Source: Moorella glycerini
GTDB taxonomy: Bacteria; Bacillota; DSM-521; Neomoorellales; Neomoorellaceae
Direction of reading: 5' to 3'
DNA: 64,000 nt
NCBI RefSeq assembly: GCF_009735625.1
Contig: NZ_CP046244.1
Location: 2,604,001-2,668,000 of the forward strand
Position numbers and translations under genes: made by a program. Shown here piece by piece: positions 46,863 to 64,000 of the stretch. How positions within the stretch are numbered: the first letter of the stretch is position 1; every line of letters begins with the position of its first letter. The notes under the pieces are model-generated. The model had not been told where the DNA came from and did no database searches. It worked only from the letters and a program-made list of their open reading frames with translations.

Positions 46863-46892
46863 AACACTCCCTTCTTGCTGGGAGTGTTTTTA
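46863..46892 (+). terminator. Terminator of polC
   Basis: AACACTCCC/GGGAGTGTT stem with an 8-base loop, then TTTTT. Confidence 0.85.
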
Positions 46893-46927
46893 TCTTATGT
46901 CGCATAAAGAGGACAACGGACGAAATA

Positions 46928-46941
46928 TGTAAACGATAACA
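46928..46941. promoter_or_regulatory. LacI-type operator-like site 1
   Basis: TGTAAACGATAACA matches the LacI/catabolite-operator pattern (TGNAANCGNTNNCA). It is the farther of two such sites before the lacI-type gene. Confidence 0.45.
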
Positions 46942-47014
46942 AAACTGTTAAGTGAGATAATTATAATAAGGCTAGATAAATCATAAAGAAAAGCCCGGTG
47001 ACAATTCGAAACAA

Positions 47015-47054
47015 GATATATGAGAGGCAATAAACATATATGAGAAGCAATAAA
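47015..47054 (+). repeat. Tandem pair of 20-bp repeats
   Basis: GATATATGAGAGGCAATAAA is followed immediately by CATATATGAGAAGCAATAAA (18 of 20 identical). It lies in the AT-rich 390-base regulatory gap before the lacI-type gene. It is a candidate binding site with 20-bp (about two helical turns) phasing. Confidence 0.6.
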
Positions 47055-47183
47055 TGATGATTTATTTGGGAAAATGGTATACCGCATTATCCATATAGCA
47101 ACGTCAAGAGAAAAAATTTCATACAAAAATTTTTCTCCGGCAGGAGGAATCTGAAAACAAATGGCGAATATAATCCATATAAT

Positions 47184-47197
47184 AGTAAACGATTACA
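47184..47197. promoter_or_regulatory. LacI-type operator-like site 2
   Basis: AGTAAACGATTACA, near-palindromic, 53 bases before the regulator ATG and 256 bases from site 1. The two sites could form a repression loop (inference). A TATAAT lies at 47212. Confidence 0.5.
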
Positions 47198-47249
47198 TAA
47201 TATATAGCAATTATAATGGCAACGTTTAAAAAAGGAAGGAAATATAGCA

Positions 47250-48272
47250 ATGCCGACCATTAAAGATGTAGCCGCCAGGGCCGGTGTTTCCACCGCCACT
47301 GTATCCCGGGTCCTCAACGGCGAGAAGGTCAAAGAAGAGACGGAGAAAAAAGTACTGGCCGCCATTGAAGCTTTAGGCTACCGTCCCAATCAGATCGCCA
47401 GGAGCCTCAAAACCCAGAAAACCCAGACCATCGGCTTTGTCGTTCCCGACTTTGGCCCTTTCTTCATGCAGGTTGCCGAGGTGGTTGAAGATATTCTAAA
47501 TGGCTATGGTTATAGCCTGGTGGTCTGTAACAGTGATGAAAATCCTGACAGGGAAAAGGATCGGGTGCGAATGCTGGCGGAAAAAAAAGTTGATGGACTG
47601 CTGGTGGTTCCCACCAGCGATACTGCCCAACACTTAATTGAAATTCAAGAAGAAGGTACGCCCATAGTTTTAGTTGACCGGATGGTTAAGGATATGCAGA
47701 TTGATTGTGTGCTGGTGGATAATGTCAACGGAGCTTACCAGGCAGTAGAACATCTTGTAACCCTTGGTTACCGGCGTATAGGGCTTATTAATGGCCGCCT
47801 GGAAGTTACTACAGGCGAAGAAAGATACCGCGGGTTTTTGCGAGTTTTTGAAGACTACAACCTCCCGGTAGATGAGAGCTTAATCTACACCGGTGATTTT
47901 TCAACTGAAAGCGGCTATGAACTTATGAAGGAATTAATGTCTCTTCCCGAGCCGCCACCGGCAGTTTTTGTCGCCAATTATTATATGACCATCGGCGCTA
48001 TGATGGCCATCAATGAACTAGGGATTAAAGTACCCCGTGATTTAGCTCTGGTAGGGTTTGACGATATGGAATTAACAAAATTAGCCAACCCACCTTTAAC
48101 AGCAGTTGTGCAACCAATGCAGGAGATGGGTGAGAAGGCGGCCGCGCTTATTTACAAACGAGTTAGCGGCGATAACTCTGGTTTCCCGCAGATGTACCGT
48201 TTAAAGCCGGAATTGGTCATTCGCCACTCTACCAGTCCTGTATGGAAAATAAAAAATCTTGAAGTTGTTTGA
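47250..48272 (+). CDS. LacI-family transcriptional regulator
   Basis: A 340-residue LacI/GalR repressor. The N-terminal HTH and hinge read TIKDVAARAGVSTATVSRVL, then ALGYRPNQIARSLK. A periplasmic-binding-like sugar domain follows (TIGFVVPDFGPFFMQVAEVV, DLALVGFDDMELTKLANPPL). It heads the sugar and microcompartment locus and probably senses the substrate or a phosphorylated intermediate, controlling its own and downstream genes through the sites at 46928 and 47184. AAGGAAGG precedes the ATG. Confidence 0.93.
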   Translation: MPTIKDVAARAGVSTATVSRVLNGEKVKEETEKKVLAAIEALGYRPNQIARSLKTQKTQTIGFVVPDFGPFFMQVAEVVEDILNGYGYSLVVCNSDENPDREKDRVRMLAEKKVDGLLVVPTSDTAQHLIEIQEEGTPIVLVDRMVKDMQIDCVLVDNVNGAYQAVEHLVTLGYRRIGLINGRLEVTTGEERYRGFLRVFEDYNLPVDESLIYTGDFSTESGYELMKELMSLPEPPPAVFVANYYMTIGAMMAINELGIKVPRDLALVGFDDMELTKLANPPLTAVVQPMQEMGEKAAALIYKRVSGDNSGFPQMYRLKPELVIRHSTSPVWKIKNLEVV

Positions 48273-48344
48273 CTTAATGTTTCGAAAGGAGTTCTAATTT
48301 TTCTGGCTTTAAGATTATCTCTAGCTAAAGGAGGAAGACAATTT

Positions 48345-49394
48345 ATGACTTCCAAAGAACGGGCACTGGTTGCAATTAAAGGAAATAAAACAGACAGATT
48401 ACCCATGTGGTATGGGGGCGCACCCGAAACGACCCAAAATATAATGGATTTTCTTGGTGCAAAGACAGAGAAAGAAGCATTATATGATATTCTTGGCATG
48501 GACTTTAAAACCATTAGGCCTAAATATATCGGATTGCCCTTTAAAAAATATGAGGATGGAACTGTAGAGAATGAATGGGGAATTAGAAGAGGCGGTTTGC
48601 ACTACGGCCAGGCTCTTAACCACCCTCTGGCAGACGCGCAGACAATAAAGGATGTTGAAAAATACAAATTCCCCGATCCCGATGATTGGGATGTAGTCAT
48701 CACCAGGGAGGAACTGGAGGATGCCAGGGGGTATTGCCTTATCGGCGCAACATGGGCTCCGTTTTTTCACGATTCTACAGAACTTATGGGCATGGAACAA
48801 TTCTTTGTCAATATGTATGTAAATCCCGGGGTGGTCGAAGCCATTATCAGAAAATGCTTTGAGTTTTATTATGAACTCAACCGGAGAACTTACGAGGCCA
48901 ACCCGGATGTCATTGATTTCTACTTCTTTGGTAATGATTTTGGCTCCATGCGCGCTTTATTGATGTCCCCCGAAATGTGGCGCAAGTTTTACAAACCCTA
49001 CGTTGCCAAACTGATAGAACAGGCCCATGCAAACGGAGCGGTAGCGGGTCTACATTCCTGCGGGGATATCCATGAAATCTTCCCGGATTTGATAGAAATT
49101 GGCTTAGACGTCATTAATCCTATCCAGGTAAGTTGCCAGCATATGGACCCAGCGGTGCTGAAGAGAGAATATGGCAAACACATTGCCTTTTTCGGCGGTA
49201 TTGATGAAAATGAAATTTTATTAAACGGAACGGAAGCGGAGGTACGGGCCGAAACAAGAAGAATTATCGATGTCCTGGGCAGTGATGGCAGGTATATCGT
49301 GGCCGCCTCCCACGATTACCTGCTACCTGAAGTGCCAGCGCGCAATATTGTGGCCATGTATGATGAAGCCAGAAAATATAGCTCAGGAAGGTGA
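48345..49394 (+). CDS. URO-D/MtaA-superfamily protein 1
   Basis: A 349-residue TIM-barrel protein of the uroporphyrinogen decarboxylase superfamily. It starts MTSKERALVAIKGNKTDRLP, the family-typical opening. The HemE catalytic Arg-rich N-terminal motif is absent, so it is not a haem enzyme. A metal-site motif HSCGDI (HxCG), as in MtaA/CmuA methyltransferases, lies near residue 237. Near the C-terminus a His (AASHDYLL) occupies the place where MtaA-type enzymes have a third Cys ligand. It lies between the LacI gene and an ABC importer, pointing to sugar metabolism. The substrate is unknown. AAAGGAGG precedes the ATG. Confidence 0.8.
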   Translation: MTSKERALVAIKGNKTDRLPMWYGGAPETTQNIMDFLGAKTEKEALYDILGMDFKTIRPKYIGLPFKKYEDGTVENEWGIRRGGLHYGQALNHPLADAQTIKDVEKYKFPDPDDWDVVITREELEDARGYCLIGATWAPFFHDSTELMGMEQFFVNMYVNPGVVEAIIRKCFEFYYELNRRTYEANPDVIDFYFFGNDFGSMRALLMSPEMWRKFYKPYVAKLIEQAHANGAVAGLHSCGDIHEIFPDLIEIGLDVINPIQVSCQHMDPAVLKREYGKHIAFFGGIDENEILLNGTEAEVRAETRRIIDVLGSDGRYIVAASHDYLLPEVPARNIVAMYDEARKYSSGR

Positions 49395-49401
49395 AGTAGG
49401 G

Positions 49402-50916
49402 GTGGATTTAATTCCGGCATTGCAAATGAAAAAGGTTAGCAAGAAATTCCCGGGTACCCTGGCTGTGGACAACGTTGATTTTGAAGTTTATCCCGGCGAA
49501 GTCCATGCCCTGGTGGGTGAAAATGGCGCTGGTAAATCAACCTTAATGAAAATGCTGGCCGGCTCCTTCAATGACTACACAGGGCAAATCTACATTGATG
49601 GAAAGGAGGTTAAACTACATTCCCCGGCTATTGCCAAAGCTAATGGTATAGCTATGATCTACCAGGAATTAAGCCTGGCCAGGCCGCTCACTATTGCCGA
49701 AAATTTGCTGGTGGGGAGGCTGCCGGTAAGAAACAGGTGGTTTATTGATAAAAGAGCCTTAATTCAGGAAGCAAGGGCCTGCCTGCAAAGTGTGGAACTA
49801 GATTATCTAGACCCCTTTTCCCCGGTGGAAGAAATCAGCCAGCATGAAGCCCAGCTAGTGGAGATTGCCAAGGCCCTGGGCAACAACCCCCGTATTTTAG
49901 TTATGGATGAGCCGACCTCCGCCCTATCGCGGGAAGAGGTGGAACGCCTGTTTAAAATAATAGGCAAACTGAAGCAGCAGGGGCTGGCCATCGTTTACAT
50001 CAGCCATCATTTAAATGAAATTTTCCAGGTGGCAGATCGAGTTACCGTTATGCGTGATGGCCGGAAAGTAGCAACCCAGAATATAACCAACGTTACCCCG
50101 GAAAAATTGATCGAAATGATGGTCGGGCGCTCTATCAATCAAGTGTACTGTGCAGCGAAAAGAACTCCCGGCGAGGTAGTCCTGGAGGTTAAAAACTTAA
50201 GCCGGTATGGGTTTTTCCACCACATATCCTTCTGTGTCAGAGCGGGGGAGATTCTGGGAATTGCCGGGCTGGCGGGGGCGGGGCGCAGCGAACTGGGCCG
50301 GGCCATCAGCGGCGTGGACCCTGTGGATGCAGGAGAAATTATCCTTGCAGGCAGGAGGATTAAAGTCAAAAATATGGCCCGGGCACTCCAGTACGGTATC
50401 GCTTATCTGACGGAAGACCGTAAAACCCAGGGGCTTGCCCTGCGCCTCACCTTAGAGGAAAATCTGTTAGCGCCTTTGATTCCCCGACACTGTAAAGGTT
50501 TTATCTACCAGAAGCAATTAGGAACGGGTATAGTTAAAAGGTTAATAGACGACCTGCACATTTCCCCCCCGGACCCGTCCAGGATCGTAGGTAACTTATC
50601 AGGGGGAAATCAACAAAAGGTTTTGCTGGGCAAGTGGCTGGCTACCGGCCCGCGGGTGTTGATCCTTGATGAACCCACCCGGGGTGTAGATGTAGGCGCC
50701 AAACTCACCATTCATACGGCCATCGAAAAACTGGCCGCCCAGGGTGTGGCCGTCATTCTCATCTCGTCTGACCTGCCGGAACTGGTGCGGCTTTCCGACC
50801 GGGTATTAATTATGCGTAAGGGACGTTTACTGGGGGAAATACCCGGTAAGTCCTGTACGGAAGAAGCGGTGCTGCTGGCTATAAACAGTGAAGGAGAAAT
50901 AGCCCATGCTGGTTAA
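49402..50916 (+). CDS. Sugar ABC transporter ATPase (RbsA/MglA type)
   Basis: A 504-residue protein with two fused ABC domains. The first Walker A is GENGAGKSTLMKML, signature EEISQHEAQLVEIAKAL, Walker B ILVMDEPTSAL. The second has the degenerate GLAGAGRSELGRAI typical of RbsA, signature LSGGNQQKVLLGKWL, Walker B ILDEPTRGVDVGAK. It powers uptake through the two permeases that follow. The GTG at 49402 was chosen; the frame is open upstream but overlaps the URO-D gene. Confidence 0.94.
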   Translation: MDLIPALQMKKVSKKFPGTLAVDNVDFEVYPGEVHALVGENGAGKSTLMKMLAGSFNDYTGQIYIDGKEVKLHSPAIAKANGIAMIYQELSLARPLTIAENLLVGRLPVRNRWFIDKRALIQEARACLQSVELDYLDPFSPVEEISQHEAQLVEIAKALGNNPRILVMDEPTSALSREEVERLFKIIGKLKQQGLAIVYISHHLNEIFQVADRVTVMRDGRKVATQNITNVTPEKLIEMMVGRSINQVYCAAKRTPGEVVLEVKNLSRYGFFHHISFCVRAGEILGIAGLAGAGRSELGRAISGVDPVDAGEIILAGRRIKVKNMARALQYGIAYLTEDRKTQGLALRLTLEENLLAPLIPRHCKGFIYQKQLGTGIVKRLIDDLHISPPDPSRIVGNLSGGNQQKVLLGKWLATGPRVLILDEPTRGVDVGAKLTIHTAIEKLAAQGVAVILISSDLPELVRLSDRVLIMRKGRLLGEIPGKSCTEEAVLLAINSEGEIAHAG

Positions 50917-51916
50917 ATGCGAAAGAATAGAGCTGAATAAACGGCGCACAGAAACGGCCGGCTGGATCGAGAAGTTCGGTGTCTATATCATGATCCTTGT
51001 GCTTCTCATCCTGGGAACTTTAATTTCCAACAAGTTTTTAACCCTTGACAATCTAGCGAATGTTGTCCATGCTGTAGCTTTGCTGGGCATCGTTGCCGTC
51101 GGTGTCACTTTTGTAACCTACAGCGGGCATTTTGCTGACATGTCGGTACCAGGGATTATTGCCCTTTCGGGAATGGTCGCCGTTGACATGCTGCGTTACG
51201 GCCTTGTTGTTAGTTTAGTCTCGGGCCTGGTGACGGGTCTTATGGTAGGCCTGATAAACGCCTTTGTTGTTGGTAAACTGAGAGCCAACCCGATTATCTG
51301 GACCCTGGCGGTTGCCTTTGTGATCAATGGCGTAGTGAGGTGGCTTTACCGGGGTGAACAGATTTATCCGGACTTAAAGGCGGGCGAAAAGCTGGCGTCT
51401 GCTTTTGTGAACCTGGCCAGGATTAATATAGGAGGGGCGGTACCCATTACAGTTGTCGTATTCCTGGTAATGGTAATCATCGGACAACTATTGCTCACCA
51501 AAACAAAGTTTGGCGTGCAGCTAAAACTCATTGGTTCTTCCTACGAAGTGGCGAGAATGACGGGAGTAAACGTAACGGGGATGGTCGGGCTGGCCTTTAT
51601 ATTATCCGCCCTGGCCGCTTCCATCGGGGGGGTTCTCTTAACCTCGCTGGTAAAAATAGGAGCGTATTATAACGGGGTCGGCTATGACTTCCGGGCCGTC
51701 ACGGCCATTGTCCTCGGCGGGGTGAGCCTGGCAGGTGGCAAGGGTAACATGATCGGTGTCCTAGGAGGGGTAGTTGTTATCGGCCTCTTGAATAATATCC
51801 TGACCCTCCTGGGTGTGGGGACTTTCTCCCAGACAATTGTCCAGGGTCTGGTGTTTATCCTGGTTGTCTGGTTCAATACCTATTCATTGCGAAAATTAGG
51901 GAAGGCTGATGGATAA
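50906..51916 (+). CDS. Sugar ABC transporter permease 1 (RbsC type)
   Basis: A 336-residue inner-membrane protein with about eight to ten transmembrane helices of the BPD_transp_2 family. The cytoplasmic loop that contacts the ATPase reads SSYEVARMTGVNV, and TAIVLGGVSLAGGKGNMIGV is a family motif. It overlaps the ATPase gene by 11 bases. Confidence 0.92.
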   Translation: MLVKCERIELNKRRTETAGWIEKFGVYIMILVLLILGTLISNKFLTLDNLANVVHAVALLGIVAVGVTFVTYSGHFADMSVPGIIALSGMVAVDMLRYGLVVSLVSGLVTGLMVGLINAFVVGKLRANPIIWTLAVAFVINGVVRWLYRGEQIYPDLKAGEKLASAFVNLARINIGGAVPITVVVFLVMVIIGQLLLTKTKFGVQLKLIGSSYEVARMTGVNVTGMVGLAFILSALAASIGGVLLTSLVKIGAYYNGVGYDFRAVTAIVLGGVSLAGGKGNMIGVLGGVVVIGLLNNILTLLGVGTFSQTIVQGLVFILVVWFNTYSLRKLGKADG

Positions 51917-52916
51917 CATGAACAAAAAACTTTACCAGGTAATCAACAACTATAGAATCTATTTCCTCTGCGGTCTGGTATTCATAGCGATGGCCATATT
52001 CGTACCCAATTTCCTGACCCTCTATAATCTTACCAACATCCTGAAGGGCATGAGCTTAAATGCCGTGGTGGCCATCGGGTTTACCATCGTCATGATCTGC
52101 AAGGAGCTCGACCTATCAATCGGTACCACCCTCACCTTAGGGGCTATGTTTGTAATCGGGTTTCAACCAGCCCTGGGCTGGGGTTGGAGTCTCCTGATTG
52201 CGGTGCTGGCCGGAGCGCTGGTGGGCCTGGCCAACGGGTTGCTGGTGGCGCGGGCGAAGATCGACTCTTTCATAGTTACGCTGGGGACCATGACCACGGT
52301 CCAGGGGATTATCTTTTTATATGGTAAAGGTTATGCCTTAAACGCCACTGATTTCACCGTAGCCGACTGGCTGGAAACACCCATCATTCCACTTTTACCA
52401 CCTCGGGTAGTGATTACTATTGTTTTTGTCCTCCTGTTCCAGGTTCTTCTCGCCCGTACCAGATACGGAAGGGGCTTTTACATGGTGGGAGCCAACCGGG
52501 AAACAGCCTGGCTGGCGGGGCTTAACACGGAAGGGTACGTTATTGTTTCGTTTATAATATCAGGTATAACCGCCGCCCTGGGGGGAGCCCTGTTTGCCAT
52601 GAGCCTTAGTTCGGCCACGCCCACCATCGGCACCAGTTCCCTGATGATCGTTGTAGCGGCAACTATTATCGGTGGTACCTCCATGGCCGGCGGCAAAGGT
52701 AGTATCCTGGGCAGCGCGATGGCGGTTTTAACCCTGACCATCCTTTACAACGGCCTTACCAACCTGGGCGCGGGCTTTGAAATCCAGATTTTAGCCAGCG
52801 GCCTGGTGCTGGCCGTGGTGGTACTGTATGAAGCCTATGCCTTGTACCAGGCGGATAAGGTGAAAGGACAAAAGCCGGAGCTGTTAAAGGAGGTGAGCCT
52901 TAGGGAGAGCAAGTAG
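51909..52916 (+). CDS. Sugar ABC transporter permease 2 (RbsC type)
   Basis: A 335-residue homologue of the preceding permease (GANRETAWLAGLNTEGYVIV loop, AATIIGGTSMAGGKGSILGS). The two probably form a heterodimeric channel. The gene overlaps the first permease by 8 bases. Confidence 0.92.
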   Translation: MDNMNKKLYQVINNYRIYFLCGLVFIAMAIFVPNFLTLYNLTNILKGMSLNAVVAIGFTIVMICKELDLSIGTTLTLGAMFVIGFQPALGWGWSLLIAVLAGALVGLANGLLVARAKIDSFIVTLGTMTTVQGIIFLYGKGYALNATDFTVADWLETPIIPLLPPRVVITIVFVLLFQVLLARTRYGRGFYMVGANRETAWLAGLNTEGYVIVSFIISGITAALGGALFAMSLSSATPTIGTSSLMIVVAATIIGGTSMAGGKGSILGSAMAVLTLTILYNGLTNLGAGFEIQILASGLVLAVVVLYEAYALYQADKVKGQKPELLKEVSLRESK

Positions 52917-53122
52917 ATGGCGGCGAAGCTCGAAAATTGAAACTGTGAAAAATAAATTAAAAGGAGGTATCTTTATAAGAGAGTGATCTTATGAAATTAA
53001 ATTGAAAAGGCGAATGGAAAAGTGCAAAAATTAGTTAGAACGGGTGAGTTGTTGCCTGACGTCCAGGTAGTCTCATAATAACAAAATTATACGTGCAAAT
53101 TATTGAGATAGGGGGTCTAGAG
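52917..53122. other. Gap before the binding-protein gene with an unused ribosome site
   Basis: A strong AAAGGAGG at about 52960 has no start codon at the proper distance; the next ATG (52991) opens only five codons. The stretch is AT-rich, with no clear terminator. It may be a leader or a small deletion scar. Confidence 0.3.
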
Positions 53123-54340
53123 ATGATTAAAAAGATGACCGGGATAGTACTGGTAGTTTTAATGGCCGCGTTATTAATGACCGGCTGTGGCGGCAAGCAA
53201 GCCCAGGAAGCGCCCAAAGGTGGGCAGACCGGCCAGGCTGACAAGAAAAGCTCCAACCTGGAGGAATCCATCAAAGCTGAGGGCGTGGTTGCCGGGCTGA
53301 AGGCTGATGACGGGCAGCTCCTTCTCCCTCCTCTGGAGAAAAAGGAAATTCCGCCGCGGCCTGCCGATCCCGCTAAACTTCCCGAAGAGGATGCCATGCA
53401 CTGGTACGACATGGAGTATTCTGGCTGGGGCGTAACGAAAGTTAATATTCCTAAATCACCTAAAGATGGCGCTAAAGGGAAAAAGGTTACCCTGATCGTC
53501 CACGGCGACCATCCCTGGACCACGGCTTACATCCGGGGTGCCAAAAAAGTGGCCGATGCCTACGGAATGGAACTAAAGGTTATGTCCCCCAACTGGAACC
53601 CCGATGTCCAGGCCCAGATGGTGGACCAGGCCATCGGCGCCCGGCCGGATATGATCCTGATGATCCCGGTGGACGCCAAGATGGCGGTACAGCTTTTCCG
53701 AAAGATCAACCAGGCGGGTATCCCGGTTATTGCCACCAATACCCATCCCGAGAGCGAAGCCATGAAATATGTCATCGCCTGGACCGGCCCGGATGACTGG
53801 GGGCAGTTCAGGATGCTGGCCCGCAAATTTGCCGAGTTGATGCACAATGAAGGCGGTTATGCAATTATTCAGCATAATCCTGGCGGCTCTCCCTTCTTTG
53901 CCAGGACGTATGCCCCGATAACTGAACTGAAGAAGATTGCGCCAAAGATGGAGCTTCTGGATAAACAGGCGCCCGGGTTTGAAGCCGAAAAAACCATGCA
54001 GGTGGTGTCCGACTGGATTACCAGATTCGGCTCCAAACTTAAAGGTATAGTGCTGGCCGATGATTCCGCTCAGGCCATCGGCACTGTTGAAGCCCTCAAA
54101 AAGGCCAACCGGCAGGATATTATTGTCGTTGCCGCCGGCAACAGCAAAGTGGGCATGGACCTGGTGAAGGAAGGCAAAATCCAGGCCATCACCTACCAGA
54201 CGGCTGAAGGTGACGGCGCCGCGGCGGTAAAGGCGGCAGCCGACTGGTTCAATGGCCATGACGTAGAACCGGTCCGCTACCTGCCCAAGCATATCATTAC
54301 CAAAGACGATGTCGACAAGTTTATGCCGGCCCAGTGGTAG
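53123..54340 (+). CDS. Sugar ABC transporter substrate-binding lipoprotein
   Basis: A 405-residue lipoprotein (signal peptide, lipobox LLMTGCGG). A Lys/Pro-rich linker is followed by a Peripla_BP_4-type domain (KVTLIVHGDHPWTTAYIRGA, GIPVIATNTHPESEAMKYVI, GIVLADDSAQAIGTVEALKK). It captures the sugar for the importer. It has about 90 more residues before the domain than RbsB. The ATG at 53123 follows GGGGG. Confidence 0.92.
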   Translation: MIKKMTGIVLVVLMAALLMTGCGGKQAQEAPKGGQTGQADKKSSNLEESIKAEGVVAGLKADDGQLLLPPLEKKEIPPRPADPAKLPEEDAMHWYDMEYSGWGVTKVNIPKSPKDGAKGKKVTLIVHGDHPWTTAYIRGAKKVADAYGMELKVMSPNWNPDVQAQMVDQAIGARPDMILMIPVDAKMAVQLFRKINQAGIPVIATNTHPESEAMKYVIAWTGPDDWGQFRMLARKFAELMHNEGGYAIIQHNPGGSPFFARTYAPITELKKIAPKMELLDKQAPGFEAEKTMQVVSDWITRFGSKLKGIVLADDSAQAIGTVEALKKANRQDIIVVAAGNSKVGMDLVKEGKIQAITYQTAEGDGAAAVKAAADWFNGHDVEPVRYLPKHIITKDDVDKFMPAQW

Positions 54341-54358
54341 TCCAAAGAAATAGCCCGG

Positions 54359-54391: not shown

Positions 54392-54445
54392 TGCCATAAA
54401 AGACGATTATCATTCAATCCTGGAGCAATAAGGGTGATATAAGAA

Positions 54446-55570: not shown

Positions 55571-55605
55571 GAAATAAGACAGCCAATATGGAGGGAACGA
55601 TCGGT

Positions 55606-55929
55606 ATGAAACGCTATGGTATGGTCATCAAGGTGAAACCCGAAAAACTGGAGGAATATAAAAAGCTGCACGCAGCCGTATGGCCCGGGGTGGCCAGGAT
55701 GATTACCGAGTGCAACATAAGGAATTATAGCATTTTCTATAAAGACGGGTATTTATTTAGCTACTACGAATATATTGGCGATGACTATGAAGCCGATATG
55801 GCTAAGATGGCGGCCGATCCTACCACCCAGAAATGGTGGGAGGTATGTAAACCCTGTCAAGAACCCCTTGAGACGCGGGCGGAAGGGGAATGGTGGGCGG
55901 TTATGGAGGAAGTATTCCATCAGGATTAA
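55606..55929 (+). CDS. L-rhamnose mutarotase family protein
   Basis: A 107-residue ferredoxin-like alpha+beta protein with RYGMVIKVKPEKLEEYKKLH, AAVWPGVARMITECNIRNYS and AADPTTQKWWEVCKPCQEPL, matching RhaM (PF05336). It interconverts alpha and beta anomers of deoxysugars (rhamnose, possibly fucose). The ATG at 55606 follows GGAGGG. Confidence 0.88.
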   Translation: MKRYGMVIKVKPEKLEEYKKLHAAVWPGVARMITECNIRNYSIFYKDGYLFSYYEYIGDDYEADMAKMAADPTTQKWWEVCKPCQEPLETRAEGEWWAVMEEVFHQD

Positions 55930-56007
55930 TTGAGATCTTTCCTGTCACGTCGGAGATGGGTACACAGCATATTTAAGCTGAATAAATTTTCGATGAAGGT
56001 GAAGCAA

Positions 56008-57801
56008 ATGAAAGATGCACTTTTTTTAAACACCAGCTTGCCCAAAATCGGTATCCGGCCTATCATTGACGGGCGCCGTAACGGGGTGCGGGAATCTTTG
56101 GAAGAAACCACCATGGGGATGGCTAGAAGGGTGAAAAAGTTATTAGAATCCAATATAAAATATCCGAATGGTTTACCCGTGGAGTGCGTGATAGCCGATA
56201 CCACCATCGGTGGGGTGGCCGAGGCGACTCGCTGCGCGGAAAAATTTGCCCGCGAAGGCGTCGGCCTGACGATTAGCGTGACTCCTTGCTGGTGTTACGG
56301 CTCCGAAACTATCGATATGGATCCTTTTATGCCCAAAGCCATCTGGGGTTTTAACGGCACGGAGCGTCCGGGGGCTGTCTATCTCGCGGCTGCCCTGGCG
56401 GGACACAGCCAGAAGGGGCTGCCGGCTTTTGGCATTTACGGGCGCGATGTCCAGGACGCCGGCGATGAGAATATTCCCGATGACGTCGCGCAAAAAATAC
56501 TGCAGTTTGCCAGGGCGGGCCTGGCGGTCGCTCTGATGCGGCGTAAATCCTACCTGTCAATCGGCAACGTATCCATGGGCATTGCCGGATCTATAGTCGA
56601 TCCCCATTTCTTTGAAAGCTACCTGGGCATGAGATGTGAATATGTGGATATGTCGGAAATAACCAGGAGAATTGAAGAAGAGATATACGACAGAGAAGAA
56701 TATGCAAGAGCGATGCAATGGGTAAAGGAGAACTGCCGAGAAGGAACGGATCGTAACCCACCTGACAGACAGGCTGGCCGGGAGCAAAAGGATAATGAAT
56801 GGAGTACTTCTGTTAAGATGGCCTTAATATGCCGGGATCTGATGGTTGGCAATCCCCGGCTGGCCGAGATGGGCTATAAAGAAGAAGCCGAAGGCCATAA
56901 TGCCCTGGCTGCTGGCTTCCAGGGGCAGCGGCAGTGGACCGACCATTTCCCCAACGGCGATTTCATGGAAGCCATTTTAAATTCCTCCTTTGACTGGAAC
57001 GGCATCAGGCGGCCTTATATCATGGCTACGGAAAACGATAGCCTCAATGGTGTGGCCATGCTGTTCGGTTATTTACTGACCAACACCGCCCAGGTTTTTG
57101 CCGATGTTAGAACCTTCTGGAGCCCGGCGGCAGTCAAGAGAGTAACCGGTAAAGAACTGGAAGGGGTTGCATCAGGGGGTATTATCCACCTGATCAACTC
57201 CGGCGCGGCGGCCCTGGATGGTTCGGGGAGGATGAACAAAGACGGCCGATCGGCCATGAAACCCTTCTGGGAGATAACACCCGAAGACGTAAAAGCCTGC
57301 CTGGAGGCAACCACCTGGTGGCCCGCTGTCCGGGAGTATTTTCGCGGCGGTGGCTTCTCTTCAAAATTCGTTACCAGGGGCGGCATGCCCATAACCCTTG
57401 CGCGGGTGAATATTATTAAAGGACTGGGACCCGTATTGCAGATAGCGGAGGGTTACACAGTAGAATTACCGGATGATGTACACCGGATCCTGGACGACAG
57501 GACCGACCCCAGCTGGCCCACGACATGGTTTGCACCAAGGTTGACGGGTAAAGGCGCCTTTACCGATGTCTACGCGGTGATGAATAACTGGGGAGCCAAT
57601 CACGGTGCCTTCAGTTACGGGCATATCGGAGCAGATTTAATCACGTTGGCCTCGATTTTAAGGATACCTGTATGCATGCACAATGTTCCTCCGGAAAGGA
57701 TCTTCCGGCCCAGCGCCTGGAATGCTTTTGGCACGGAAGACCTGGAGGGAGCAGATTACAGGGCCTGCCGCAACTTTGGGCCCTTGTACGGGAAGTACTG
57801 A
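56008..57801 (+). CDS. fucI: L-fucose isomerase
   Basis: A 597-residue enzyme, close in length to E. coli FucI (591). Motifs are [72 protein letters not shown] (Glu and Asp metal ligands) and [16 protein letters not shown] (third ligand His). It converts L-fucose to L-fuculose and often also accepts D-arabinose, using Mn2+. The ATG at 56008 follows GAAGGTGAAG. No fuculokinase lies in the window. Confidence 0.92.
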
Positions 57802-57841
57802 TTTACAAGACTATATTTAGAGATGACAGGAGGTTTTTTCC

Positions 57842-58984
57842 ATGAGCAAAACCAAAGGTGGCATTAAAACCGAACGGGTACTTAAAGCCTTAAACCATGA
57901 AGAACCGGACCGTGTGCCTATAACTGACTTTTTTTGGAGCCTTTTCTTGCAAGAATGGCAAAAAGAAAAAGGGAAAGATGCCTTTATCTATGATTATTAT
58001 GATCTTGATATCCTTGTGGTCAGTCCCAATATGGACCCTCGTGTGATGCGCAGCCGTTTCATCGAGAAAAATGATGAATACATGATTTACGAAACCGGCT
58101 GGGGGTCTGTTATTAAAAGACAGATTGAAGCTCCCATGCCTATGTTCCTGGAGTTCGGCATCAAGTCGGCGGCCGATTACGCAAAATTTGAGTTCGATGA
58201 TCCCTTGGACCCCCGCCGTTATTATGACGAGCGGGACGATATCATCAATACCGGTGACACCTACCTCGTATTGCCCAGTTTTGCCGAGACAGTAGAGCGC
58301 TATAAAAACGACTATTTCATTTTTGGTAGTGTCTGTGAACCCTTTGAAGCCCTCTGGCGCTGCCGTGGTACGGAAGGGGCTTTAATGGACCTGGTCCTCT
58401 ATCCCGATGAAACCCAGGCCTTTATCGACCGCCTGACGGAGCATATGCTGGCCATCGGCAAGAAGCAGATTGAAATGTTCAATTTAAAGGGCATGTACAT
58501 CTGGGGCGACGTGGCTTACGACAAGGGCATGTTCTTTTCCCCGGATCTGTGGCGGAAGATGTTTTACCCGGCAGTGAAAAAGCTGTGCACTGAATTCCAC
58601 GCCATGGGGGCGAAGATCATTTACCACGGCTGCGGCAATGCTCGTGCTATTTACGAGGACCTGATCGACGCGGGTGTGGACTGCTATAACCCCCTGGAAG
58701 CTAAAGCTGGCCTGGATGTGGTGGAATTAAAGCGCCAGTACAAGGGCCGGCTGGCATTTAACGGTAATATTGACGTCCGGGTTTTAGCCGAAGGGGATAA
58801 AGATGCGATCCGGAGGGAGGTCCTGCGTAAACTAAACGCTGCCAAAGGCGGGGGCTATATCATTTCTTCTGACCATTCCGTAGCTGCTAATGTACCGCCG
58901 GAGAATTATGATTACCTGGTGCAACTGGTACGGGAGTATGGCAGGTATCCGCTAGATCTGGGGGAGTTTGACGAGGAAATATAG
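57842..58984 (+). CDS. URO-D/MtaA-superfamily protein 3
   Basis: A 380-residue TIM-barrel protein (TERVLKALNHEEPDRVPITD). HGCGNA provides the HxCG motif near residue 261; ISSDHSVAANVPPENYDYLV supplies the C-terminal His. It sits between fucI and the aldolase, inside the core catabolic operon, so its role is likely tied to the same sugar. AGGAGG precedes the ATG. Confidence 0.8.
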   Translation: MSKTKGGIKTERVLKALNHEEPDRVPITDFFWSLFLQEWQKEKGKDAFIYDYYDLDILVVSPNMDPRVMRSRFIEKNDEYMIYETGWGSVIKRQIEAPMPMFLEFGIKSAADYAKFEFDDPLDPRRYYDERDDIINTGDTYLVLPSFAETVERYKNDYFIFGSVCEPFEALWRCRGTEGALMDLVLYPDETQAFIDRLTEHMLAIGKKQIEMFNLKGMYIWGDVAYDKGMFFSPDLWRKMFYPAVKKLCTEFHAMGAKIIYHGCGNARAIYEDLIDAGVDCYNPLEAKAGLDVVELKRQYKGRLAFNGNIDVRVLAEGDKDAIRREVLRKLNAAKGGGYIISSDHSVAANVPPENYDYLVQLVREYGRYPLDLGEFDEEI

Positions 58985-59018
58985 CTATATATTTGGAACA
59001 ACAGGTTGGGGGGCAAAC

Positions 59019-59816
59019 ATGGTGCCTTCGGAATTTCAATTACGCCAGGATATCTGCGAAGTAGGGCGGCGGATTTACCAGCACGGTTTCGTGGCTTCCA
59101 ATGACGGTAATATCAGCATCCGCCTGAATGAAAAAGAAGTATTGGCGACACCTACCGGCGTCAGTAAGGGTTTTATGACCCCGGAGATGCTGGTTAAAGT
59201 CAATATGCAGGGAGAACAATTGAGCGGGCAGTTAAAACCTTCATCGGAATTGAAAATGCACCTGGAAATATACCGCCAGCGGCCGGATGTACGGGCGGTG
59301 GTTCATGCTCATCCGCCGACGGCTACCGGATTCGCCGTGGCCGGTATTCCCCTGGATCGTTGTGTGCTGCCGGAAATTATTATCAACCTGGGGAGTATAC
59401 CCCTGGTTGCCTACGGGACGCCCTCGACTGATGAAGTGCCGGCTGCGGTGAAGGAATATATCGGTAGCCATGATGCCCTGCTGCTTGCCAACCACGGAGC
59501 CCTGACTGTCGGTACGGACGTATATAATGCTTATTATAAAATGGAGTCGCTGGAGTTATTCGCCAAAATCAGCCTTACCGCCAGGTTGCTAGGAAATGAA
59601 AATGTTCTCTCGGCGGAACAGGTCTATAAGCTTATGGAAATCCGGGCCAGGGCAGGAGTTACTTCACCCAACCCCGGCTGTGTTGATTGTGGCGCCTGCA
59701 GCGTCTCTACCCGCGAAGCCCCGGCCGCAACCGGCATAACGGAAGAAGAGCTGCGGGAGATTATTACCAATGTAACCCGGCGCGTCCTGACATCACTTGG
59801 GGATAGGAAACAGTAA
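59019..59816 (+). CDS. Class II aldolase (fuculose-1-phosphate type) with BMC-targeting-like tail
   Basis: A 265-residue zinc aldolase. The N-terminal half has GNISIRLNEKEVLATPTG (phosphate site), SSELKMHLEIYRQRPDVRAV with catalytic Glu, VVHAHPPTATGFAVAG (Zn His pair) and LLLANHGALTVGTDVYNAYY (third His). It would split L-fuculose-1-phosphate into DHAP and L-lactaldehyde. Unlike E. coli FucA it carries an extra 45-residue tail: a Cys-rich linker (CVDCGACS) and a terminal amphipathic helix (EEELREIITNVTRRVLTSL) of the encapsulation-peptide type. The ATG at 59019 follows GGTTGGGGGG. Confidence 0.88.
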   Translation: MVPSEFQLRQDICEVGRRIYQHGFVASNDGNISIRLNEKEVLATPTGVSKGFMTPEMLVKVNMQGEQLSGQLKPSSELKMHLEIYRQRPDVRAVVHAHPPTATGFAVAGIPLDRCVLPEIIINLGSIPLVAYGTPSTDEVPAAVKEYIGSHDALLLANHGALTVGTDVYNAYYKMESLELFAKISLTARLLGNENVLSAEQVYKLMEIRARAGVTSPNPGCVDCGACSVSTREAPAATGITEEELREIITNVTRRVLTSLGDRKQ

Positions 59817-59898
59817 AGGAGGGGCATGGTAGCTCCGTCTTCCTTTAAGTTAAGTTAAGTTAATTACAACCCGTGCAAGTCAATTTTGGAGGCACACC

Positions 59899-60171
59899 AT
59901 GAACAATCAAGCCCTGGGTATAATTGAAGTTCGCGGCCTGGCCGCCGCCGTTGCCGCCGCGGACACGGCCGCCAAGACGGCTGCAGTCACCATCCTCGGC
60001 TACGAACCGACCAAAGGCAGCGGCCTGGTAGTATTAAAAATCAGCGGTGAAGTCAGCGCTGTCACGGCAGCCATCGAAGCCGCAAAGGAACAAGTTGCTA
60101 ACGTCAGCACCGTTTTTGCCAGCCGGGTCATCGCCCGGCCCCATGAAGAACTGGCACGGTATTTAAGCTAA
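59899..60171 (+). CDS. BMC-domain shell protein (hexamer-forming), first
   Basis: A 90-residue single-BMC-domain protein (ALGIIEVRGLAAAVAAADTA, GYEPTKGSGLVVLKISGEVS, RVIARPHEELARYL). Such proteins tile the facets of a microcompartment shell with a central pore. It is distinct from the two shell proteins that follow (KGSG in place of KIGSG at the pore loop). GGAGG precedes the ATG. Confidence 0.94.
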   Translation: MNNQALGIIEVRGLAAAVAAADTAAKTAAVTILGYEPTKGSGLVVLKISGEVSAVTAAIEAAKEQVANVSTVFASRVIARPHEELARYLS

Positions 60172-60232
60172 GAAACCCTCCAGGTAAAAAACACGAAGAA
60201 CCCTAAAAATTTAAAGGAGGAAGAGTCAACTC

Positions 60233-60529
60233 ATGAGCGCCTTAGGACTCATCGAAACCAAAGGTTTAGTCGCCGCCATCGAAGCCGCCGACGCCATGCT
60301 CAAAGCCGCCAGCGTCGAACTGGTGGGCATGGAAAAGATCGGCTCCGGCCTGGTCACCGTCATGGTCACTGGCGAAGTCGGCGCCGTCAAGGCGGCCACC
60401 GAAGCCGGCGGGGCAGCCGCCGCCAGGCTCGGGGAAGTCATCGCCGTCCACGTCATCCCGCGGCCCCACAGCGACGTAGCCCGCATCCTGCCCGGTAAAA
60501 AAGACGCCTCTACCAGGGGGGTAGATTAA
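60233..60529 (+). CDS. BMC-domain shell protein (PduA/EutM-like), second
   Basis: A 98-residue single-BMC-domain protein: [55 protein letters not shown]. It has the canonical small-metabolite pore loop KIGSG. A 10-residue tail ([10 protein letters not shown]) distinguishes it from the next protein, with which it is a tandem duplicate. AAAGGAGG precedes the ATG. Confidence 0.95.
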
Positions 60530-60530
60530 C

Positions 60531-60803
60531 ATGAAAGACGGCGCCCTGGGACTTATCGAAACCAAAGGCTTAGTCGCCGCCATTGAAGCCGCCGACGCCA
60601 TGCTCAAAGCCGCCGGCGTCGAACTGGCCGGCATGGAGAAAGTCGGCTCCGGTCTCGTCACCGTCATGGTCAGCGGCGATGTCGGCGCCGTCAAGGCGGC
60701 CACCGAAGCCGGGGCCGCTGCCGCTGGTCGCTTAGGTGAGATTATTGCCGTCCACGTTATCCCGCGGCCCCACACGGACCTCAGCAGAATATTACCCTCC
60801 TAA
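60531..60803 (+). CDS. BMC-domain shell protein (PduA/EutM-like), third
   Basis: A 90-residue near-copy of the preceding shell protein: 11 differences in 85 aligned residues, all conservative. The two genes are one base apart. Duplicated hexamer genes allow mixed shells with different pores or edge contacts. Confidence 0.95.
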
Positions 60804-60816
60804 GCGGTGAGCAGAA

Positions 60817-62289
60817 ATGATCGACGAAACCACTATCGCCAGCATTGTCGCCGAAGTATTAAAAAACATCCAACAGCAGTCCTGTAATGGGACAACAGCT
60901 ACCACGGCAACAGCGTGTAGCGGTGCCTGCCAGGCGCGGGCCGGCCAGGCCGTGGCCACTGCCTCGCGCGGTGACAAAGGCGTATACAGCGACTTGAATG
61001 CAGCCATTAGCGCTGCCAAAAAAGCGCAGCAAGAACTGGTAAAGCTAAGCCTCAAAACGAGGGGCGAGATCGTCGCCGCCATCCGCCGGGCGGCCATAGA
61101 AAACGTAGAAATAATCGCCAGGCTGGCCCACGAAGAAACCGGCTACGGCCGGGTCGAAGACAAGATCCAGAAGAAGCTCTACGCCGCCCGCTTAACCCCG
61201 GGGTTAGAAGACATAAAGACCGAGGCCATCAGCGGCGACAACGGCCTCATCCTGATTGAGCGGGCGCCCTTCGGCCTCATCGCCGCCATCGAGCCGGCCA
61301 CCCATCCCGGCTCCTGCGTCATCAACCATGCCATCAGCATGGTCGCCGCCGGCAACAGCATTATCTTCCTGCCCCATCCCAAAGGGCTCAAGACCACCCA
61401 GTACCTGGTGCGCCTTTTCAACGCCGCCATTCAGGAAGCCGGCGGGCCGGAGGATTTATTAGTCGTTGGCGATAAAGTCAGCCTGGAAAACCTGGACCTG
61501 GTCTTAAGCCATCCCGATGTAGATCTGGTCGTCGCCACCGGCGGTCCCGAAGTGGTTAACCGGGCCCTGAGAAGCGGCAAAAAAGCCATTGCCGCTGGCC
61601 CCGGCAATCCCCCGGTGGTCGTCGACGAAACAGTGAAAGACCTGGACTACGCCGCCAGGTGTATTGTCGACGGTGCCGCCTTTGACAACACCGTCCTCTG
61701 CATTGCCGAAAAGGTCATCATTGCCGTGGAAGCGATAGCCGGCGAGCTCCTCTTCCACCTGCAGAACCACGGCGCCTATCTGGTGCAGGACGAAAGGGAC
61801 AAAGAGAACCTGGTGCGGGCCATCCTGCCCGACGGCCGGACCTTTAACCCCGAACTAACAGGCAAAGACGCCGTACTTATCCTGAAGCAAGCCGGCATCA
61901 ACGCCCCGGCGCACACCAGGATCGCCCTCATAGAATGTCCCCCGGAGCACCCCCTGGTGCAGGAAGAACAGCTGCTGCCGGTCCTGCCCCTGGTGCGGGT
62001 AAAAGACTTTGACGCCGCCCTGGAACTGGCCGCCCGGGTCGAGCACGGCTACAAACATACGGCCATCATCCACAGCCAGGACGTAGGCCGCATCACGGCT
62101 TACGCCCGCAAGCTCCGTACCGACATCCTGGTAGCCAACGCCTCCTCGGCCGCCGGGTTAAAGATCGGCGGGGAAGGGCACTTCAGCCACACCATCGCCA
62201 GCCCCACGGGCGAGGGTATCTGTACCCCCCGCACCTACACCCGGGAACAGCGGACGGTCATCGCCGGGGCGCTGCGGACGGTAGACTAG
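60817..62289 (+). CDS. CoA-acylating aldehyde dehydrogenase (PduP/EutE-like)
   Basis: A 490-residue enzyme. The N-terminal amphipathic helix MIDETTIASIVAEVLKNIQQ and Thr/Ala/Cys linker are the encapsulation peptide seen in PduP. The catalytic domain has LIERAPFGLIAAIEPATHPG, VATGGPEVVNRALRSGKKAI, AAGPGNPPVVVDE and the active Cys in AFDNTVLCIAEKVI. With L-lactaldehyde from the aldolase it would make lactoyl-CoA and NADH inside the compartment. It follows the shell genes after 13 bases. Confidence 0.93.
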   Translation: MIDETTIASIVAEVLKNIQQQSCNGTTATTATACSGACQARAGQAVATASRGDKGVYSDLNAAISAAKKAQQELVKLSLKTRGEIVAAIRRAAIENVEIIARLAHEETGYGRVEDKIQKKLYAARLTPGLEDIKTEAISGDNGLILIERAPFGLIAAIEPATHPGSCVINHAISMVAAGNSIIFLPHPKGLKTTQYLVRLFNAAIQEAGGPEDLLVVGDKVSLENLDLVLSHPDVDLVVATGGPEVVNRALRSGKKAIAAGPGNPPVVVDETVKDLDYAARCIVDGAAFDNTVLCIAEKVIIAVEAIAGELLFHLQNHGAYLVQDERDKENLVRAILPDGRTFNPELTGKDAVLILKQAGINAPAHTRIALIECPPEHPLVQEEQLLPVLPLVRVKDFDAALELAARVEHGYKHTAIIHSQDVGRITAYARKLRTDILVANASSAAGLKIGGEGHFSHTIASPTGEGICTPRTYTREQRTVIAGALRTVD

Positions 62290-62492
62290 TAATTAAACGC
62301 AGCTTAATTGTGAAATCAGGAACAAGAGCGGAGTGGAAGCGGCGAGGAAGTGGAGCAGGTGGGGGGTTATCAGGGTTAAATATAATTTAACGCCTTGAGG
62401 AAGGCCCCGGGCTGCCTCTCTCTAGCTGGAGAAGAAACGCATCAGGCGCCAGGGAAGAAAAGATATAAAAACCCGCACCTGGAGTGAAGGAA
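62290..62492. other. Gap between aldehyde dehydrogenase and PduS-like gene
   Basis: About 200 bases of low coding potential, GC-rich with no clear terminator; I see nothing in it beyond the ribosome-binding site GGAGTGAAGG for the next gene. Confidence 0.4.
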
Positions 62493-63832
62493 ATGCCTGG
62501 CAGCGAACTAAACGCCATCATAAATAAAATAGCATCTGCCGGCGTGGTCGGCGCCGGCGGGGGCGGTTTCCCCACCGCCTTTAAACTGAAGACCGGAACA
62601 CCTATCCAGACCGTTATCATTAACGGGGCCGAGTGCGAACCCTTACTTAAAGTCGACCAGGAACTGATGGCCCGCTACCCGGCGGAACTCCTGGCCACTT
62701 TAGCCACCCTTGTTCAGGCCACCGGCGCCCAAACAGGGGTCATAGCCCTCAAAGAAAAATACCGGGAGGCCCATACTGCCCTGGCTGGGGAAATACGCAA
62801 TTACCCGGGCCTGAAGCTCCACCTCCTGCCGGACGTCTACCCCGTGGGCGATGAGCACTTATTAACCTATAGCGTTACCGGCCGAACAATCCCGCCGGGA
62901 GGATTACCCCTACAGGCGGGAGCGGTAGTTTTAAACGTCGAGACTTTATACAATATCCACCAGGCCCTGGAAGGCCACCCTGTAACCCATAAGTACGTCA
63001 CCGTCACCGGCGCCGTCCGGCAGCCCATCACTGCCAGGGTACCGGTCGCACCCCGATGCGGGAACTCCTGGCCCTGGCCGGCGGCCCGGCTGTAGACGAA
63101 TACCTTCTTATCGCCGGCGGCCCCTGCATGGGTAAGGTTACAGGCATTAATGCGCCGGTTACCAAAACTACCAAGGGCATTATTGTCCTGCCCCTGGACC
63201 ACCCCCTGGCTGCCAGTTACCAGCGGGACCTGAACCGGGAGCTGAAGATCGCCCTCAAGGTCTGCTGCCAGTGCCAGCAGTGCACGGACTTCTGCCCGCG
63301 ACACCTTTTAGGACATCCCCTGGAACCCCACCGGGTCATGCGCGCGGTTACCTATGGCCTTGTTGATATAACCTTGCCCCAGGCCCTGCTTTGCAGCGAG
63401 TGCGGCCTCTGCGACCTTTACGCCTGCCCCTTCAACCTCTCCCCGCGCCAGGTCAACAGGAAAATAAAGGCCGAACTGCAGCAAAAGGGTTTCCGGCCCG
63501 GCCCCTGGCAAGCTACTATCCCTTCCCTTTTCCGGGAAGGACGGCAGGTACCCACTAAAAGCCTTATCAACCGCCTGGGCTTAAAAGAATATTACGCACG
63601 CCCGGTAACTTTCCGGGAAGGAAACATCAGGGTTAACCTGGTCCACCTCCCCCTCAGGCAAAGTGCTGGTGTCGCTCCCCGGCCGGTAGTCAAGGTGGGC
63701 GACCGGGTAGAAAGAGGCGATCTCCTGGCGCGCATAGAGAATGATACCCTGGGAGCCAGCCTTCACGCCAGCATAAAGGGCACGATCACTGCCCTCAATC
63801 CCGTAATCATCATTGAGGGAGGTGGTGACTGA
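62493..63832 (+). pseudogene. PduS/RnfC-like flavo-FeS protein split by 1-base frameshift
   Basis: The N-terminal part (62493-63047) has GAGGGGFPTAFKLKTG and INGAECEPLLKVDQELM, the NADH and FMN sites of RnfC/PduS. The rest (about 63049-63832) has two [4Fe-4S] motifs, CCQCQQCTDFCPRHLLGH and CSECGLCDLYACPFN, and ends in a Rnf-type barrel-sandwich domain (GDRVERGDLLARIENDTLG). At 63044-63052 the sequence GGTCGCACC needs one more G (GGTCGGCACC) to keep VPVGTPMRELLALAG in frame. It is either a real mutation or an assembly error. Intact, it would recycle NADH or reduce cobalamin across the shell. Confidence 0.85.
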
Positions 63833-64000
63833 TGGGAATCGCCATCGGCCTTATCGAGCTGAAGAGCCTGGCGCGGGGGGTTATGGTGGCCGACGGCTGC
63901 CTGAAAGCCGCTCCGGTATCCGTAAAAATACGCACCACCTGTCCCGGCAAAAGCCTGATTATCTTAAGCGGCGAGATCAGCGCCGTTAACAGCGCCGTTG
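63832..64000 (+). CDS. BMC-domain shell protein (PduT-like), cut by window edge
   Basis: The first 56 codons (MGIAIGLIELKSLARGVMVA, DGCLKAAPVSVKIRTTCPGK, SLIILSGEISAVNSAV) form the start of a BMC domain of the PduT tandem type, which in Pdu systems bears an Fe-S cluster at the pore and pairs with PduS. The ATG overlaps the preceding stop (TGATG), indicating coupling to the PduS-like gene. Confidence 0.85.
   Translation, partial: MGIAIGLIELKSLARGVMVADGCLKAAPVSVKIRTTCPGKSLIILSGEISAVNSAV

Follow-up and report, generated by a model that had tools for sequence, protein, structure and literature searches.

The 2021 catalog of bacterial microcompartments (BMCs) describes aldolase-type BMCs under the names PVM and PVM-like, and the words 'uroporphyrinogen' and 'methyltransferase' are both absent from its main text (PMC8217296). 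The fucose-rhamnose BMC of Clostridium phytofermentans, type GRM5, has a fuculose/rhamnulose phosphate aldolase and CUT2-type importers, and the main text of the paper describing it also lacks the term 'uroporphyrinogen' (PMC3557285). The operon treated here lies in a window of 64,000 nucleotides from Moorella glycerini (contig NZ_CP046244.1, positions 2,604,001 to 2,668,000). Judged from gene content it resembles the PVM and PVM-like BMCs: a class II aldolase as signature enzyme stands beside three BMC-H genes (PF00596, E 3.2e-51), together with a PduP-like dehydrogenase, PduL, and a vertex protein whose gene is frameshifted here, and a fucose/rhamnose-type isomerase and a kinase are found nearby. 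It differs from them in three interleaved genes of the uroporphyrinogen decarboxylase (URO-D) superfamily, here called URO-D A, B, and C. Aldolase and importer type are shared with GRM5, while no propanediol dehydratase was found in the scans of the Moorella operon.

O-demethylases of the UroD superfamily that act on methoxylated aromatics have been described, as has a chloromethane system (PMC13222342). In MtvABC/Odm/Vdm and CdmBCA a superfamily member is methyltransferase I and works with a corrinoid protein and methyltransferase II, and the same role is proposed for the Moorella proteins. Unlike those systems, the latter belong to a separate clade from sugar operons, and their operon holds no corrinoid gene.

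O-methyl sugars occur widely in the glycans of plants, algae, and bacteria, and the familiar route for removing the O-methyl groups is oxidative (P450). No description of corrinoid-dependent demethylation of sugars was found among the listed titles and abstract openings of open-licence PMC papers, a search that shows its absence only weakly. From the sequence evidence it is fairly probable (about 0.6) that the operon degrades an O-methylated 6-deoxyhexose, most likely O-methyl-L-fucose, and that one or more of the URO-Ds are corrinoid-dependent O-demethylases acting upstream of the fucose/BMC pathway. The original prediction for this DNA had inferred a URO-D step foreign to the described fucose BMC types; such a step is indeed absent from the usual type, and for its chemistry, then left unspecified, the evidence points to corrinoid methyl transfer. 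If this is true, a corrinoid route open to anaerobes would close a gap beside oxidative P450 demethylation, a large protein group now named just 'uroporphyrinogen decarboxylase family' would gain a testable function, and one operon would tie together sugar breakdown, microcompartments, and methyl-based acetogenesis.

The URO-D proteins and their clade

Model scores rule out a HemE or porphyrin function for all three proteins. With the HemE equivalog TIGR01464 (cut-off 303 bits) URO-D A and C reach 23 and 32 bits, and URO-D B gives no match. The MtaA/CmuA model TIGR01463 gives 63, 69, and 54 bits for A, B, and C, below its cut-off of 235. They are nevertheless related to the MtaA/MtbA methylcobamide:coenzyme M methyltransferases and the Mlp proteins of MGCs (families described in PMC10418091): the best solved relative of a profile built from 12 sugar-clade sequences is MtaA (4ay7, E 2e-21), and the HxC of MtaA aligns with an HxC. 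They differ from MtaA in the sugar-operon context and in the last motif, where the Cys of MtaA aligns with a His in the profile. This replacement of the last metal-site Cys is found in URO-D A and C, and in URO-D B the last His is one column off the metal site in the alignment. Of 82 aligned URO-Ds (27 from M. glycerini, 55 from relatives, some outside the sugar clade), 74 have His at the first site, 53 have Cys at the second, and 36 have His at the last. In URO-D C the residues of the presumed metal site are His262, Cys264, and His345. A predicted structure of URO-D C, made from five sequences, has a mean pLDDT of 55.7, too low to support a fold search or to judge the geometry of the metal site.

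The 27 URO-D proteins read from the genome exclude one weak match (C1:4195-4359), and both trees with relatives omit six divergent ones. In the tree a sugar clade comprises URO-D A, B, and C, the URO-Ds of two further BMC loci of the genome except one (U1314), a protein called U754, two URO-Ds of a ribose-type operon, one of a tagatose-type operon, and one of another sugar ATP-binding cassette (ABC) operon. Five URO-Ds from a region rich in corrinoid proteins (464-490 kb) form a separate clade with support 100/100; we take these, partly for their adjacency to corrinoid proteins, to be of MtvB type, and the HxC motif is absent from all five. The trees thus rule out that A, B, and C are plain members of the aryl-ether O-demethylase family, as they fall outside the MtvB-type clade. 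URO-D B groups with a BMC-linked URO-D (L171) and with URO-Ds of hexuronate operons (support 98/95). An earlier tree placed URO-D C beside a corrinoid-linked URO-D (support 97/97), but the final one does not, and this placement is not used.

The three proteins are 95-97% identical to their counterparts in Moorella mulderi, with a ratio of non-synonymous to synonymous substitution rates (dN/dS) of 0.05-0.13, so they are real genes under selection; for the L-fucose isomerase FucI the ratio is 0.05.

Association with corrinoid genes

The clearest link is found in Acididesulfobacillus acetoxydans (L181 and L269), where a closely spaced run of genes on one strand leads from an aldolase BMC operon into sugar genes, and a URO-D, a corrinoid protein, and an L-rhamnose isomerase stand together beside the BMC genes. 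The first part holds the aldolase, three BMC-H, PduL, EutN, PduP, PduS, PduT, AckA, DeoR, and an ASRT protein; the run continues with the URO-D, the corrinoid protein, the isomerase, RbsA, two RbsC, a solute-binding protein, and a rhamnulokinase-like kinase. The open reading frame (ORF) of the corrinoid protein (PF02607 2.2e-21, PF02310 1.4e-28) starts 30 bp after the URO-D. That of the isomerase (TIGR02635, 608 bits, cut-off 531) starts at the end of the corrinoid gene, the real start lying maybe ~70 bp later, and the kinase scores 482 bits with a cut-off of 528. The ASRT protein (L269:1491-1910) belongs to the Anabaena sensory rhodopsin transducer family (PF07100). Elsewhere in the same organism (L270:11210-18001) a corrinoid protein with a URO-D on either side stands in front of an epimerase-like gene (PF01263 25.9 bits, cut-off 27), GalT, and GalK, with a sugar ABC importer at its other end. 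Two URO-Ds and a corrinoid protein of this organism also lie near a tagatose-type aldolase and an FGGY kinase. In two genomes of another family (L139, with genes checked by Pfam, and L140, by phmmer) an FGGY kinase (in L139 352 bits to XylB, cut-off 380) is followed by a URO-D A homolog, a sugar ABC importer, a corrinoid protein, and a pterin-binding methyltransferase II.

In stretches hand-chosen from the listed matches, not drawn at random, a same-strand corrinoid gene lies no more than 3 kb from 13 of 50 sugar-type URO-Ds (8/44 without A. acetoxydans). This count leaves out the URO-Ds labelled UroD_754, UroD_2294, and UroD_3c, and the corrinoid protein of L139 and L140, at 5.3 kb, falls outside it. 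By chance such a neighbour would be expected for ~2%, as we estimate from 12 PF02607 matches in 3.56 Mb. Using labels derived from M. glycerini proteins, a transporter lies within 3 kb of at least 10 of the 50 and a kinase likewise of at least 10. The contexts of the clade are sugar operons: rhamnose, galactose, hexuronate, and tagatose-type ones according to family models, and ribose-type ones by eye. In one of the latter (L025:6637-10716, ~611-616 kb), with RbsK, RbsD, LacI, RbsA, RbsC, and RbsB recognised by eye, there are two sugar-clade URO-Ds, perhaps for O-methyl ribose. Homologs of URO-D B and of URO-D 3b are found in three other stretches (L168, L169, L160), with O-methyl hexuronates as candidate substrates; those of L169 and L160 lie beside altronate-dehydratase genes, L169 also has a mannitol-dehydrogenase-family gene, and TRAP-like transporters were recognised by eye.

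The M. glycerini genome (3.56 Mb, two contigs) has 12 PF02607 matches, three matches to the RACo-type activase, and a pterin-binding methyltransferase II (in L026). The original prediction had suggested looking for corrinoid proteins past position 64000; none (PF02607) was found there or in the other BMC loci of the genome. U754, of the sugar clade, ends a run at ~754-763 kb with a corrinoid protein, methyltransferase II, a corrinoid-binding histidine kinase, a response regulator (by eye), and RACo. A run of this type recurs in three sampled relatives (L163, L166, and L167), in L166 without methyltransferase and corrinoid-protein labels. It is a guess that the ~754-763 kb run supplies the corrinoid partner of the URO-Ds in the window. 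Co-regulation of the operon with the corrinoid genes of L026 through the putative LacI-type operator was considered and rejected, as no exact copy is found there. The protein encoded at L026:10483-12303 joins a histidine kinase to corrinoid-binding domains and a PocR sensory domain and may be a sensor of methyl or corrinoid state.

Co-occurrence was counted in 249 genomes of the phylum, with matches accepted up to E 1e-25 for URO-D A and 1e-20 for URO-D C; the family scans, which had identical settings and genome labels, are presumed to have covered one and the same set. RACo is found in 133 of them. Homologs of URO-D A are present in 34 genomes from 20 families, every one of which has RACo, compared with 99 of the other 215 (p 7e-11); for URO-D C the numbers are 37/37 and 96/212 (p 6e-12), some of its homologs being of the U754 type, which adjoins RACo. 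The genomes are related, so these p-values are too small. RACo also serves the corrinoid protein of the Wood-Ljungdahl pathway, and 74 of the 78 genomes with acetyl-CoA synthase carry it. The comparison was therefore repeated in the 171 genomes without this enzyme, where RACo is found with URO-D A in 12/12 (47/159 of the others, p 1e-6) and with URO-D C in 16/16 (43/155).

A possible route for O-methylated deoxysugars

In the proposed route the ABC importer would take up an O-methylated deoxysugar. At least one of the three URO-Ds would serve as methyltransferase I, binding the sugar, with a metal in the HxCG...H site, and moving its O-methyl group onto the Co(I) of a corrinoid protein whose gene lies elsewhere in the genome. 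Methyltransferase II, a pterin-binding enzyme, would hand the methyl group to tetrahydrofolate and on into the Wood-Ljungdahl pathway, and a RACo-type activase would hold the corrinoid in the reduced state. The mutarotase, FucI, the FGGY kinase, and the aldolase would then turn the freed sugar into dihydroxyacetone phosphate and L-lactaldehyde, and the BMC would confine the lactaldehyde while PduP and PduL oxidise it to lactoyl-phosphate. Demethylation is placed first because FucI should be unable to use a sugar methylated on O2, and a methyl on O3 or O4 should impede aldol cleavage. From gene families and neighbourhoods we thus infer the enzyme activity, the methylated substrate, the metal, and a corrinoid partner acting in trans. 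The acetogenic lifestyle assumed in the original prediction agrees with the presence of acetyl-CoA synthase (family CdhC) in the genome.

All the corrinoid evidence is equally compatible with methyltransferases whose methyl group sits on a methyl glycoside, on the aglycone of a deoxysugar glycoside (a methoxylated aromatic, for instance), or on sulfur, and the wider UroD superfamily has O-, S-, and halogen-demethylases (PMC13222342 and PMC10418091). The trees, however, set the sugar clade apart from the MtvB-type URO-Ds of the same genome, and its contexts are operons for various monosaccharides, many with Rbs-type importers, which makes a substrate of this kind unlikely. It is also conceivable that the URO-Ds work on sugars without a corrinoid, serving many sugar operons as, for example, metal-dependent epimerases, isomerases, or decarboxylases; 37 of the 50 examined members lack a same-strand corrinoid gene within 3 kb, the BMC loci of M. 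glycerini have none, and the third metal ligand is unlike that of MtaA. This is hard to reconcile with RACo in all genomes with URO-D A or C, or with URO-Ds and corrinoid proteins as direct neighbours in BMC, galactose, and FGGY-kinase operons, and we regard it as distinctly improbable. Very little credence is given to the idea that the locus is an ordinary aldolase-type fucose/rhamnose BMC in which the URO-Ds are passengers outside the pathway. Five BMC loci of the same bacterial family lack a URO-D in the stretches examined, as do 55 of 57 surveyed loci (among the best 80 of 575), but all three URO-Ds are conserved under selection, two of them lie inside or beside the pathway genes, and URO-Ds are found in both other BMC loci of the genome as well as in two outside Moorella (L171 and L269).

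Several points weigh against corrinoid-dependent demethylation of a deoxysugar. Besides the lack of corrinoid genes in all three BMC loci and next to most clade members and the kinship of the sampled genomes, a URO-D is present in only two of the 57 surveyed BMC loci. The control family Fucose_iso_C is itself weakly associated with RACo (37/57 genomes, p 0.05; 18/38 among those without these URO-Ds), and among genomes without acetyl-CoA synthase FucI shows 28/48 vs 31/123 (p 7e-5), so part of the association of the URO-Ds with RACo may reflect lifestyle. Acetyl-CoA synthase is found in 22 of the 34 genomes with URO-D A and is missing from 12, and the methyl group would consequently not always end in the Wood-Ljungdahl pathway. 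Some members of the clade have HSDG in place of HSCG, or lack the final His. The pairwise likeness among URO-D A, B, and C is just 23-30%, and the final tree does not give URO-D C a nearest group with good support, for which reasons one of the three may have another role.

Two extensions of the demethylation proposal can be added. That the clade as a whole represents a large group of sugar O-demethylases, dependent on corrinoid and plugged into the ordinary sugar operons of many anaerobes, for fucose, rhamnose, galactose, ribose, tagatose, and hexuronates, turning a methyl-capped sugar into sugar and a one-carbon substrate, is given slightly less than an even chance. One URO-D for each of the ring hydroxyls O2, O3, and O4 would let the set strip any O-methyl fucose before the BMC pathway; this is proposed because methylation at each position should block the isomerase or the aldolase, and it is the bolder and a rather improbable addition.

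The operon and other BMC loci

The features of the operon are collected in Table 1. It is transcribed from the (+) strand, from 47250 to the end of the window and ~7 kb further, and is headed by a LacI regulator. All the genes named in the original prediction (LacI, importer, mutarotase, FucI, aldolase, shell proteins, PduP, PduS, PduT, and three URO-Ds) are present on this strand in the order given there, and its reading as an aldolase-based deoxysugar BMC with an L-fucose-type isomerase is borne out by the aldolase and FucI scores; no B12 or glycyl-radical diol dehydratase was found among the operon and flanking genes scanned. LacI, PduP, PduS, RbsK, RbsD, response regulator, and TRAP are names given by eye.

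Table 1. Features of the M. glycerini operon in window coordinates; positions marked L015 are converted by adding 60000.
Feature	Position	Strand	Basis
Putative LacI-type operator, copy 1, GTAAACGATWAC	46929..46940	.	exact copy
Putative LacI-type operator, copy 2	47185..47196	.	exact copy
LacI-family regulator	47250..48272	+	ORF, family by eye; 89% identity in M. mulderi
URO-D A, proposed methyltransferase I, HSCG...SHD motif	48345..49394	+	PF01208 1.9e-27
RbsA-type sugar ABC ATPase	49270..50916	+	ORF; 93% identical homolog L063:4589-6220
Sugar ABC permease 1	50906..51916	+	ORF; 98% in M. mulderi
Sugar ABC permease 2	51909..52916	+	ORF; 93% in M. mulderi
Sugar-binding lipoprotein	53093..54340	+	ORF; 91% in M. 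mulderi
URO-D B, proposed methyltransferase I, HTCG + ADH motifs	54446..55570	+	PF01208 5.8e-20
RhaM-type mutarotase	55558..55929	+	PF05336 1e-33; TIGR02625 45.8 bits, cut-off 99.6
L-fucose isomerase FucI	55930..57801	+	NF008220 equivalog 1113 bits, cut-off 775
URO-D C, proposed methyltransferase I, HGCG...SDH motif	57842..58984	+	PF01208 4e-29; 97% in M. mulderi
Class II aldolase, L-fuculose-1-P type	58968..59816	+	PF00596 3.2e-51; likely start 59019
BMC-H shell protein	59899..60171	+	PF00936
BMC-H shell protein	60233..60529	+	PF00936
BMC-H shell protein	60531..60803	+	PF00936
PduP-like CoA-acylating aldehyde dehydrogenase	60817..62289	+	ORF, by eye; 92% in M. mulderi
PduS-like protein, single-base frameshift	62484..63832	+	two ORFs; tblastn pieces in different frames; DNA alignment; by eye
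PduT-like tandem-BMC shell protein	63832..64000, on to L015:4377	+	PF00936 x2; TIGR02526 112 bits, cut-off 250

The gene upstream ends in a terminator, an inverted repeat at 46863-46888 followed by a T run. Both operator copies precede lacI, with the same placement in M. mulderi (L063, 2278 and 2534), and no further exact copy was found in the 415 kb of M. glycerini and M. mulderi loci scanned. The start of the ABC ATPase is uncertain and is probably ~49394 rather than 49270, and that of FucI is probably ~55993-56008. URO-D C is placed between fucI (40 bp on its 5' side) and the likely aldolase start (~35 bp on its 3' side). The C-terminal helix of the aldolase resembles an encapsulation peptide and may serve in encapsulation. 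PF00936 matches three times in the window (59911-60770), and a tandem pair lies just beyond 64000. As the original prediction had hoped, the DNA past 64000 supplies PduL (252 bits, cut-off 209), EutN, and a rhamnulokinase-like FGGY kinase (487 bits, slightly below the cut-off of 528), in this order; they are followed by an AraB-kinase fragment, a transposase, and then rimP/nusA.

Compared with M. mulderi, a cultured strain with a seemingly intact operon, there are single-base frameshifts in PduS and in the gene for the EutN pentamer (L015:5135-5409), which is intact in BMC locus 2 of the genome and in M. mulderi. No match to AckA was found here, though M. mulderi has it between EutN and the kinase, and the truncated AraB-like kinase adjoins the transposase (L015:7050-9689). 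Either the shell end of the locus is decaying or these are assembly errors.

Searching for the aldolase of the BMC in one genome per species gave 575 confirmed loci; in the best 80, with flanks of up to 10 kb and many contigs shorter than that, 57 BMC loci were recognised. The two with a URO-D are those of M. mulderi and A. acetoxydans, which rules out the URO-D as a general BMC component. Coming from the URO-D side, a third case (L171) has on one strand a URO-D B homolog (PF01208), a SorC-type sugar-binding regulator (PF04198), an FGGY kinase, class II aldolases, BMC-H, PduL, PduS, and PduT, and TRAP-like transporter genes were recognised by eye upstream of them; the stretch showed no PduP. 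No BMC gene lies within 3 kb on the same strand of any of 50 sugar-type URO-Ds outside M. glycerini, the distances being 4.3 kb in L171 and 8.6 kb in L269. The co-occurrence of URO-D and BMC genes elsewhere, raised in the original prediction, is rare; the examined clade members lie mostly without BMC genes, which counts in part against that prediction, but a kinase and further BMC genes are present downstream of the window. Within the same bacterial family the five BMC loci without a URO-D in the stretches examined (G098, G304, G261, G187, and C60 of G303) have importer, isomerase, aldolase, and shell genes, and the FucI-type locus with URO-D is found in two further genomes, G212 with A, B, and C and G303 (C79, a stretch ending inside fucI) with C.

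The 14 BMC-domain matches of the M. glycerini genome fall into three BMC loci, all of which include at least one URO-D. According to the main text of the 2021 catalog, more than two BMC loci occur in ~2% of BMC genomes (PMC8217296). The L-rhamnose isomerase of locus 2 (~972-988 kb) scores 535 bits with TIGR02635 (cut-off 531); this locus also encodes a rhamnulokinase-like kinase, a class II aldolase, and a single URO-D, and its PduS, EutN, and AckA are all full-length. Locus 3 (~1303-1324 kb; L029:8306-L018:18052) has a PfkB kinase, a phosphomannose-isomerase-like protein, a DUF4432 protein, an FBA/tagatose-type class II aldolase (PF01116), and three URO-Ds, two from the sugar clade and U1314, whose clade has MtaA-like HxC...C residues. 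Since neither 'pfam01116' nor 'fructose' occurs in the main text of the catalog (PMC8217296), locus 3 may represent an undescribed BMC type; it is found again in two genomes, G306 and G303.

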